Positions 25,786 to 32,994 of a stretch of 42,763 bases of DNA are shown here, piece by piece; the stretch's first letter is position 1; every line of letters starts with the position of its first letter. This DNA is from a bacterium (lineage in GTDB: Bacteria > Patescibacteriota > Gracilibacteria > Peribacterales > Peribacteraceae), in the NCBI GenBank assembly GCA_029558515.1, contig JAKQEM010000024.1, positions 121,164 to 163,926 of the forward strand, in the 5' to 3' direction. A model generated the notes under the pieces. It was not told where the DNA came from. It ran no database searches and saw only the letters and a list, made by a program, of their open reading frames with translations. A program made the position numbers and the translations under genes.

Positions 25786-25861
25786 TGGTGGAGTCGAGGG
25801 GATTCGAACCCCTGACCCCCTGCTTGCAAAGCAGGTGCTCTACCAACTGAGCTACGACCCC
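25786..25861 (-). tRNA. tRNA-Ala (anticodon TGC)
   Basis: 76 bases including an encoded CCA. Acceptor GGGGTCG pairs with CGACTCC, with the G3-U70 wobble pair that identifies alanine tRNA. Anticodon loop TTTGCAA with TGC; T-arm AGGGG-TTCGAAT-CCCCT is normal; discriminator A73. Confidence 0.98.
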
Positions 25862-26117: not shown

Positions 26118-26192
26118 GGTGCCGTAGCCAAGCAGTAAGGCAGGGGTCTGCAAAACCCCCATACGTGGGTGCAATTCCCACCGGCACCTCCA
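26118..26192 (+). tRNA. tRNA-Cys (anticodon GCA) with altered G18/U55
   Basis: 75 bases including CCA. Acceptor GGTGCCG pairs with CGGCACC; discriminator U73 as in other tRNA-Cys; anticodon stem GGGGT/ACCCC around CTGCAAA. The T-loop is TGCAATT, so position 55 is G (26171) instead of U. The D-loop reads AAGCAGTAA, so position 18 is A (26134) instead of G. Both members of the G18-U55 tertiary pair are therefore changed. Confidence 0.93.
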
Positions 26193-29913: not shown

Positions 29914-30495
29914 TCACTCTCCCGCAGCCCCCTCCTCCCCGTCCGGCGGAACGAAGCTGAGACTCCCGAGCATGGCGATGATTTGCGTTTCCAACTCCGG
30001 ATCGACCGAGACCGGCGTCGCGGCCGTCACGGTGAATCCCATGTTCTGCGAGACGGCGCTCACCTGATAGAACCGCTCACTGAGCGCGTCCGGCCGCGGC
30101 TTGGCGGAGAAGACGTGCACCACGATGTCTTCGCCATCCACCGCCGTCTCCCGCCGGTCGATTTCCTCATACTCCGGCAAACCGGACACGGAGAGAATGC
30201 TCGCTGCGCTGTACTCGGGCGTCGTCATCGTGCGGGAGAGAATTTCTCGCGTGACGACCACGGTGGCAAACTGTCCCGCATAGGGCCGCTCGGACTGAAA
30301 AGCGATGATTGCTTCCTCGGAGACGCCCCGCTCATCGAGCTCGCTGCGATCCACCACGCGCCATTCCGGAGAGACGCAGATGCCCATTTCCCCGTTCCAG
30401 TACGCATGTTCGCAGGAGGTCACCCCATCGGTCACATTGTCGCCGCAGGCGGAGAGGAGGAGAGCCAAGCTCAGAAGGATGAGTCGTGCGCGCAT
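29914..30495 (-). CDS. Predicted lipoprotein
   Basis: 193 residues. Signal peptide MRARLILLSLALLLSACGDN with the lipobox LLSAC places the acylated Cys at about residue 17. The mature part has two further Cys close together (SCEHAYWNGEMGICVS, about 28-41) that could form a disulfide. Then comes a globular alpha/beta-looking domain (VVDRSELDERGVSEEAIIAF ... ATVVVTREILSR) and an acidic tail. The end of the domain (DPELETQIIAMLGSLSFV) resembles the closing segment of small periplasmic PsbP/DUF1795-like folds, but the match is too weak to name. TACGAT ends 6 bases before the ATG. Confidence 0.8.
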   Translation of the reverse strand: MRARLILLSLALLLSACGDNVTDGVTSCEHAYWNGEMGICVSPEWRVVDRSELDERGVSEEAIIAFQSERPYAGQFATVVVTREILSRTMTTPEYSAASILSVSGLPEYEEIDRRETAVDGEDIVVHVFSAKPRPDALSERFYQVSAVSQNMGFTVTAATPVSVDPELETQIIAMLGSLSFVPPDGEEGAAGE

Positions 30496-30501
30496 GGGCC
30501 C

Positions 30502-30507
30502 ATCGTA
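30502..30507 (-). promoter_or_regulatory. -10 box (TACGAT) of the lipoprotein gene, leaderless geometry
   Basis: TACGAT on the minus strand ends 6 bases before the ATG (30493-30495), with spacer GGGCCC. Confidence 0.5.
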
Positions 30508-30574
30508 GCAGAGAACGCAGGTCCGAATGACATGGACATCTGCACAAAATGTTCTCTCGCTGCTACCCTGTGCA

Positions 30575-30603
30575 TTGAGCCAACACGGGAAGAATGGTAT
30601 AGT
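30575..30603 (+). promoter_or_regulatory. Promoter of the surface protein gene
   Basis: TTGAGC (30575-30580), 17 bases, TATAGT (30598-30603), then GGAGAGAAT and ATG 30613. The purine run GGAGAG is one of the few Shine-Dalgarno-like sequences in the window. Confidence 0.6.
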
Positions 30604-30612
30604 GGAGAGAAT

Positions 30613-32994
30613 ATGCGTTTGCCCCTAACACACATCACCATCGCACTGTTTCTACTTTGCGCCCCCCTCACTGCGACTGCGGGAACGATCCAAGCGGAAG
30701 ATTCCGTCGCAGGGGTGGGGCTGACCGTGACACTGTCGGACTTCACGCCGCAGGCATCCGTTGAAGTGCAACTCACTGCGCCGGACGGCACGCCCGATTC
30801 GTTTGCCGCACAAACGGATGAGACGGGCACTGCGGAGCTGGCCATCGCCGGACGCTTTGCGCAGCGCGCGGGTATCTATGTCCTGCGCACGCCCAACGAC
30901 ACCTCCGGCATGACAACGGTTCTGGTGGAACCCGATTCCATGGACCCGCGCACGTCTGCACTGCAGGTCCAAACCCCGCGCATCGCCGCCGACGGACACG
31001 AGACCGCCGCCATCGAAGTCACCCTCCGGGACCGCTACGGCAACCCCCTGCCGGGGCGCGCCGCGAGCGTCCTCTCCGGCCGCACGACCGATACCATTCG
31101 CGCACTCACGCCGGAAACCGATGTGCAGGGCACCCAGCACTTCTCCTTTTCGACGCGTACGCCGGGAACATCGTCCCTCCGCGCAATCGATCTCCTCAGT
31201 GGCGCACCCGTGCTGGAATCGGCTACGGTGGAAGCACGAGGGACGGCCGTGGGCGGACAGACGGCATACGCATCCCCCTATGCGGCGCAGACCTCTTTGG
31301 ACGGTCGCTTCTTCTACGCCCAGGTACTGCCGTCCTTCGATATCATCGATCACTTCGAAGTGGAGGCGCCTCAAACGATGCAGCCGGGCGTCGAAGCGCA
31401 GAAACTGACCGTCCGCGCCGTGGACCGCTCAGGCAACACCGTGGAGAACTACCTCGGCACGGTTCTCTTCTCCTCCACCGACCCCGCGGCCACACTCCCC
31501 AATTTCGGCACGTACACGTTCCGCGAACGGGATCTGGGAGCGATGACGTTTGCGCTGGCGCTGAAGTTCCGTTCCAGCGGCACGCAAACCTTCCGGGTGG
31601 AAGATGCCAATGACGACCGCATCGCCGGCGAAGCGACCATCCAAGTGGGCGGAGACGCGACGAACCCCGGCACGGGCACCATTGAGATCACCTCGCACAA
31701 AAACGACGATTACATCAATGGCACGGACATCCTCGTGGAAGGACGCGGTCCACGATTCGCCAATATCATCGTCATGGGCGGACCGCAGGATGCGACGGGC
31801 GCCACGGACGGCGAGGGCAACTTCTCCGTTCCGGTATCGCTGAATCCCGCCCAGACGGACCACACCATCCGCGTGCGTGATGAAACGGGACGCAACGACT
31901 CGGGTCCGATTCACCTCATTTTGGACAGGAGCGCAGAGGAGATCGAACTCATCCAATTTTCTCCCGAGAAACCCGATGCAGGCACGCAGGTGCTCGTGGT
32001 CGTACGGAGCACGCCCGACCTCGCACAGGTGATGCTGCGGCTGCCGGCGGGCACCGCCGTCCAGGAGACCATTCTGACGGAGAATGCGATGCAAGCGGGC
32101 TCGTACCAAGGATTTCTCACCGCGCCCGACGCGGGCACATACCAACCGTCCGTCATCGCCACCGATCGAGCGGGCAACCGGACGGAGGTACGCACGACGC
32201 TCACGGTCGCGTCCACGCAGCTCCCCCGCGTGGAGAATCTGCGGATCGAACCGCGGGAAGAAGCCATCGCACTCCGCTGGGACGCCGTTGAGGGGAGCGT
32301 TACCGGGTACCGCCTCTACATCGGAGAAGGACCCGACAACTTCCTCTACACGTTGGATACGGGCGGACCCGTCACCCAAGCGGTCGTGCGCGGCCTCCTG
32401 CCGGACCGCGTGTATCACTTCGCCGTCACGGCTCTCCGGGAAGATCTGGAAAGCGAGGGGAAGAGCACGGTTGTCACGGGGCAACCGCTGGGCATCTCGC
32501 TCAACGTGATCCCCGAAGAGAGCGCATTGCAGGTGCGCTGGACGTCTCTCTCCGCAGATCTCCCCCTCTCGTCCTTCGTACTGGAGTACGGGACGGACGA
32601 AACGGCGCTCTCCGAGAAGCGCATACTGAACGGCGAACTGCGCGACGTCACGCTGCGCGACCTGCTCCCCGGCGTTCCCTACTTCCTGCGGCTGACGCCC
32701 GTGACCGTCTCCGGCGAGGAGATGACGCAGCTCTCCGCCACGGGCAAAGGCACGCCCGGCGGTACGGGCTTCCATGCCGCGCCGCGCGATGAAGCGCCGT
32801 TTGACATCACCCTCCATCCCGGTGCACAGCTCAATCCACCGCCCGCAGTGAATGACGTCGGACTCCCCCGCAGCGCCTGGATGGCAGCCGCGGGCATGGG
32901 CGCGCTTTGCATCCTCTGGTACGTCCGGCGCAAACAGTCCGCCCGCAGAACCGATCGCTTCCTGCAAGCGGTCTCCGCCCGCTATCATTCCTGA
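30613..32994 (+). CDS. Large surface-anchored Ig-like/FN3 repeat protein
   Basis: 793 residues from ATG 30613. Signal peptide at 1-23 (PLTHITIALFLLCAPLTATA). Then a chain of beta-sandwich domains: two N-terminal domains, one with the Big_1/invasin-like motif VTLRDRYGNPLPG (about 133-145); a middle domain with AVDRSGNTVENYLGTVLFSS; a Ig-like unit around SHKNDDYINGTDILVEGRG (about 358-376); and two fibronectin type III modules (about 535-720; LRWDAVEGSVTGYRLYIGEG, VLEYGTDE). Near the C-terminus one membrane helix (WMAAAGMGALCILWYV) is followed by a basic tail (RRKQSARRTDR), so the protein is fixed in the membrane with a long extracellular stalk. It probably acts in adhesion or host contact. The C-terminus nearly abuts the PfkB gene. 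Confidence 0.85.
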   Translation: MRLPLTHITIALFLLCAPLTATAGTIQAEDSVAGVGLTVTLSDFTPQASVEVQLTAPDGTPDSFAAQTDETGTAELAIAGRFAQRAGIYVLRTPNDTSGMTTVLVEPDSMDPRTSALQVQTPRIAADGHETAAIEVTLRDRYGNPLPGRAASVLSGRTTDTIRALTPETDVQGTQHFSFSTRTPGTSSLRAIDLLSGAPVLESATVEARGTAVGGQTAYASPYAAQTSLDGRFFYAQVLPSFDIIDHFEVEAPQTMQPGVEAQKLTVRAVDRSGNTVENYLGTVLFSSTDPAATLPNFGTYTFRERDLGAMTFALALKFRSSGTQTFRVEDANDDRIAGEATIQVGGDATNPGTGTIEITSHKNDDYINGTDILVEGRGPRFANIIVMGGPQDATGATDGEGNFSVPVSLNPAQTDHTIRVRDETGRNDSGPIHLILDRSAEEIELIQFSPEKPDAGTQVLVVVRSTPDLAQVMLRLPAGTAVQETILTENAMQAGSYQGFLTAPDAGTYQPSVIATDRAGNRTEVRTTLTVASTQLPRVENLRIEPREEAIALRWDAVEGSVTGYRLYIGEGPDNFLYTLDTGGPVTQAVVRGLLPDRVYHFAVTALREDLESEGKSTVVTGQPLGISLNVIPEESALQVRWTSLSADLPLSSFVLEYGTDETALSEKRILNGELRDVTLRDLLPGVPYFLRLTPVTVSGEEMTQLSATGKGTPGGTGFHAAPRDEAPFDITLHPGAQLNPPPAVNDVGLPRSAWMAAAGMGALCILWYVRRKQSARRTDRFLQAVSARYHS

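Follow-up and report, generated by a model that had tools for sequence, protein, structure and literature searches.

A chromosomal tRNA-Cys with A18 and G55 in place of the conserved G18-pseudouridine55 elbow contact in Peribacteria, and its recurrence elsewhere

The contact between G18 and pseudouridine55 at the tRNA elbow is regarded as almost without exception, and no tRNA modification is held to be more universally conserved than pseudouridine55. Suppressor tRNAs selected in E. coli from a randomised library, described by Doyon, Zagryadskaya, Chen and Steinberg (J Mol Biol, 2004), reportedly had U at position 55 where residue 18 was G, and G at position 55 where residue 18 was A. Known elbow structures have residue 18 intercalated between residues 57 and 58 and in contact with pseudouridine55, and G19 pairs with C56 (PMC4810234, PMC7912444). 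This study focused on a tRNA-Cys gene in a 42,763-nucleotide stretch of a Peribacteria genome (contig 44, positions 121164-163926; hereafter the window) that carries A18 and G55. A natural A18-G55 pair was not reported in the searchable open-access literature, but may have been noticed earlier in subscription papers or tRNA compilations. The main text of Mukai et al. (2017), who charged a Parcubacterial tRNA-Cys, makes no mention of the T-loop, the D-loop, A18 or U55.

The gene was called by both ARAGORN and Rfam RF00005 (61.8 bits, against a gathering score of 29), and its features are listed in Table 1. The acceptor stem (GGTGCCG/CGGCACC) is paired at 7 of 7 positions and is followed by U8 and A9, the D-stem is GCC/GGC with A13.A22, the anticodon stem GGGGT/ACCCC encloses the loop CTGCAAA, the variable loop is CATAC, and the T-stem is GTGGG/CCCAC. 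The D-loop reads A14 G15 C16 A18 G19 U20 A21, and equals in length the canonical D-loop of its relatives, AAGTGGTAA. Cloverleaf numbering confirmed the two replaced letters that the preliminary description had pointed out, and the remainder, which it had judged sound (acceptor, anticodon, U73 and CCA), does form a full cloverleaf on which both callers agree. Ordinary letters are found at G19, C56, U54, A58, R57, G53-C61, U8-A14, U73 and the Levitt pair G15-C48. The elbow features G19-C56, U54-A58, R57 and G53-C61 are thus present and G18-U55 is absent, while purine 18 is matched to residue 55 (A with G) in the manner of the specific purine trap. Promoter and terminator scans around the gene gave no signal above chance. 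Elsewhere in the window, positions 29983-32994 encode a protein of 1003 aa, likely a surface protein, whose domains are of the bacterial Ig-like (Big_1, invasin D3) and fibronectin III types.

Table 1. Features of the tRNA-Cys gene and a neighbouring tRNA gene (window coordinates)
Feature	Position	Strand	Basis
Complete tRNA-Cys(GCA) gene with encoded CCA, without a second tRNA-Cys in the genome	26118..26192	+	ARAGORN, Rfam RF00005, sequence reading
A18, where G18 is near-universal	26134	+	sequence read against cloverleaf; D-loops of relatives AAGTGGTAA
G19, unaltered, pairs with C56	26135	+	sequence reading
Anticodon GCA	26150..26152	+	gene call
T-loop TGCAATT (U54 G55 C56 A57 A58 U59 U60)	26170..26176	+	sequence reading
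G55, where U55/pseudouridine55 is expected	26171	+	sequence and relatives
Discriminator U73 (T), main cysteine identity element	26189	+	sequence; role from PMC9976931
tRNA-Ala(TGC), divergent neighbour with ordinary G18/U55, internal comparison	25786..25861	-	ARAGORN, RF00005

The genome (1.31 Mb, 99.28% complete) gave 47 RF00005 matches, among which ARAGORN typing found one tRNA-Cys and no second copy, settling a question that had been raised about the gene. The other 46 tRNAs all have G18/U55 according to a D- and T-loop parser. TruB is kept (290-aa frame), as expected with 46 U55 tRNAs; the proposed loss of the TruB target is real for position 55 of tRNA-Cys alone, and does not extend to the enzyme. 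A canonical CysRS is also encoded (508-aa frame, PF01406, E 2e-93), and its presence was the reason for setting aside an indirect charging route by way of SepRS. The same genome contains an additional, unusual tRNA-Ala(GGC) whose acceptor stem is poor (G000:C38:57896-57961, L075), possibly a tRNA fragment.

To survey the family, 74 genomes (Candidatus Peribacteria) were searched with a pattern in which position 18 was open to A or G and position 55 to G or U; here, and in the searches of the class, Patescibacteria, Omnitrophota, Thorarchaeota and WOR-3, the states of 18 and 55 were read from the matches by eye. A tRNA-Cys was matched in 67 of the 74 genomes, with A18/G55 in 56, G18/U55 in 11, and mixed states in none, so the sharing by sister genomes on which the preliminary description had wanted a check is widespread. 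Both states occur even within one genus, g60. Where full tRNA-Cys sequences were compared (30 family members), the G18/U55 members keep most of the other sequence in common, including the family's acceptor stem, and because of this the switches between states look like point changes rather than gene exchange. Every genuine tRNA-Cys matched in the class's remaining families has G18/U55; the single A18/U55 match there (G224) had no tRNA fold and was discarded. Two family members are peculiar in other ways: one tRNA-Cys (L049, genome G030) has G58 for A58 in addition to A18/G55, giving the T-loop TGCAGTT, and a 2.1 Mb assembly (G079) has, besides its first tRNA-Cys, another one that is canonical and very different (G079:C10:648-699) and is perhaps contamination.

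These data bear directly on whether the unusual letters could come from a sequencing or assembly error, a pseudogene or a misaligned D-loop. The probability of this is close to nil, since identical letters recur in 56 related species and in many unrelated contigs, the gene has a full cloverleaf and is the sole tRNA-Cys, and the D-loop is of canonical length.

The two positions covary. Among 166 distinct tRNA-Cys sequences with strict cloverleafs, the 18/55 combination was A/G in 116, G/U in 49 and G/C in one, and neither A/U nor G/G was seen. Part of this set had been picked for A/G, so that the proportions of the states are meaningless and the result lies in the absence of mixed states, which rests on the loci found with open patterns, as the 74 loci from genome contigs were unable to show a mixed state. 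Mutual information between 18 and 55 was 0.88 bit, the highest of all non-helical pairs, and its normalised value (0.95) was similar to that of helix pairs. The next-best correlates of position 18 were positions 51 and 63, at 0.2 bit, a level not separated from shared ancestry. Candidates for a cause of the switch in other letters were rejected: tRNAs of either state lack D17 and have an invariant A22, and A57 is only commoner with A18/G55 (77:39) than otherwise (16:33) among the 166 sequences. The lack of mixed states in 67 family species and in 166 distinct sequences upholds the earlier suggestion that the change was coordinated and did not come from a single error.

This pattern also argues against relaxed constraint, by which the elbow contact would have been lost and tolerated in a tRNA that reads rare codons, with positions 18 and 55 left to drift. 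Cysteine is indeed a rare amino acid, which counts in favour of drift, and tRNAs with G18/C55 (T-loop TCC) exist too: a tRNA-Cys (L079), a tRNA-Leu (L125), a tRNA-Gly (L173), and at L161 tRNA-Arg, tRNA-Phe and tRNA-Val, three different such tRNAs inside 8 kb. However, drift predicts all combinations, whereas two states were seen nearly alone, with G19, C56, U54, A58 and G53-C61 kept. Given that the covariation shows almost exclusively two states, drift is contradicted and appears very improbable.

What is seen directly is the sequence, its single occurrence in the genome, its conservation, covariation and recurrence, and the presence of TruB and CysRS. The best explanation is that the tRNA-Cys is functional, with G18-pseudouridine55 replaced by a purine-purine pair, A18-G55, and with the two sites switching as a unit; we put its probability at roughly 0.87. 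A pair in the same place best explains a matched state with all else kept, and most likely, therefore, the 18-55 contact has been exchanged, and not lost or simply removed. In the T-loop, A18 would be sandwiched between A58 and R57 and hydrogen-bonded to G55, in a bonding scheme deduced from the letters, while G19 would still pair with C56, so that the D- and T-loops would lock and the L-shape be kept. Because G55 cannot be isomerised, the tRNA-Cys would be without pseudouridine55, but otherwise its function is presumably normal. In evolution, positions 18 and 55 would change together, from G18/U55 to A18/G55 or back, with intermediates being rare.

The A18/G55 state is not peculiar to the Peribacteria genome: tRNA-Cys of four groups at phylum level, bacterial and archaeal, have it too, and so do some tRNA sets of phages. 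Genome contigs were scanned for tRNA-Cys that combine A18/G55 with a variable loop of 5 nt and, among the matches listed, 74 of the 79 sites read were full cloverleafs, and came from many Patescibacteria, WOR-3, Omnitrophota, Endomicrobiia and Thorarchaeota. With open patterns, and among the matches listed, A18/G55 was found 17 times in Patescibacteria outside the class and 23 times in Omnitrophota, the remainder being G18/U55 in both groups and none mixed. Thorarchaeota (16 A18/G55, 18 G18/U55) and WOR-3 (20 and 34), searched as phyla with the open pattern, were likewise free of mixed states. The patterns were fixed for A14-G15, G19, C56, R57, A58 and G53-C61, and more altered elbows would escape them. 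Nine families of Patescibacteria (f43, f49, f57, f74, f77, f89, f95, f103 and f107) besides f1 hold both states, ten families in all, and on this basis the double change would have arisen about ten times or more, provided that each family is monophyletic and inherits the gene vertically; the independent switches are deduced from the mixed families and not from a species tree. One Omnitrophota genome (G717) has two different tRNA-Cys genes (L278 and L279), both A18/G55, with variable loops of 4 nt and 5 nt.

A further proposal, compatible with the exchanged pair, is that A18-G55 is a selected identity signal of tRNA-Cys, either read by CysRS at the elbow or repelling another synthetase. Within the Peribacteria, A18/G55 is apparently restricted to tRNA-Cys: by eye, no other tRNA cloverleaf of the family has it, the remaining anticodon-free pattern matches are not tRNA-like, and in the window's own genome it is present in 1 of 47 tRNAs. 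E. coli CysRS, moreover, depends on an unusual pair in the core of tRNA-Cys, G15-G48 (PMC9976931). Against this, close relatives, even within one genus, have G18/U55, the Levitt pair of the window's tRNA-Cys is an ordinary G15-C48, and the state is not confined to tRNA-Cys, since it is carried by a tRNA-His(GTG) (L132, 7507-7578) and a tRNA-Leu(TAA) (L177, 1207-1290) of Paceibacteria/Parcubacteria, as well as by phage tRNAs of other isoacceptors. We consider a selected identity signal unlikely, though recognition of the core by CysRS is a reasonable idea for why tRNA-Cys is the usual carrier, even if close relatives differ in state.

Viral sequences (IMG/VR) provided an independent test, in which one common frame was used for all four 18/55 combinations. 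A18/G55 gave 68 matches, 41 of them cloverleafs, and G18/U55 at least 120 matches, with 75 cloverleafs among 79 read. A18/U55 gave only 2 matches and 1 cloverleaf (L388), and G18/G55 gave 5 matches and no strict cloverleaf, although two near-identical, imperfect tRNA-Cys-like candidates were seen (L390 and L392, acceptor 5/7); together with the G18/C55 tRNA-Cys of L079, these are the rare exceptions to the two-state rule. The remaining tRNAs in the A/G viral loci comprised 66 A/G, 331 G/U, no A/U and 2 G/G, one of the last being a mis-register. Kept alongside the switch were G53-C61, U54, C56, R57 and G19. Five phage tRNA arrays (L371, L361, L328, L349 and L359) carry A18/G55 in most or many of their tRNAs, covering several isoacceptors, and L361 encodes a DnaB-like phage helicase. 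At the extreme, in a 205 kb phage contig (L371), all 15 parsed tRNAs have G55 and 11 of them are clearly A18; some of its tRNA-Leu have an apparent pyrimidine at 18. Klebsiella phage FKP3, the nearest named-phage match to a phage A18/G55 tRNA-Cys, does not have A18/G55, nor does an uncultured phage of 595 kb to which the tRNA of the window gave a match.

Phage sets of this kind are what might be expected if the change were favoured by freeing position 55 from TruB, as modifying enzyme or chaperone, with an altered folding order or the evasion of an enzyme that reads pseudouridine55 as the benefit. G55 cannot be a TruB product, and TruB is present in the Peribacteria genome; that genome, however, retains U55 in its other 46 tRNAs, and escape from TruB seems improbable as the driving force. 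A bolder proposal, speculative and rather doubtful, is that A18-G55 is a second natural elbow standard with many separate origins, chiefly in tRNA-Cys, and that certain phages have come to use it in almost all of their tRNAs, which would thereby escape host enzymes that depend on pseudouridine55, or elbow-reading defences.

An alternative to G18-pseudouridine55 that is natural, has evolved repeatedly and covaries strictly would mean that the constraint acts on the pair and not on its letters. It would also offer a natural test of what pseudouridine55 does, and would provide tRNAs that TruB is unable to modify at position 55. On the practical side, such genes will receive too low a score from tRNA finders and identity models in which U55 is rewarded.

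Compared with the canonical elbow, the window's tRNA-Cys is alike in G19-C56, U54-A58, R57, G53-C61, loop lengths and cloverleaf, and differs in having A-G at 18-55. With the suppressor tRNAs of the 'specific purine trap' it reportedly shares the same pairing rule, but those were selected from a library, whereas the tRNA described here is natural, chromosomal and conserved. Like E. coli tRNA-Cys with its G15-G48 (PMC9976931), it has an unusual tertiary core pair, although its own 15-48 pair is an ordinary G-C. Non-standard contacts between the D- and T-loops are also a feature of the tRNA-Pyl and ZtRNA scaffolds, but in these the 18-55 and 19-56 contacts are missing or shifted (PMC6337575), while in the window's tRNA-Cys a single pair has been exchanged within an otherwise standard tRNA.
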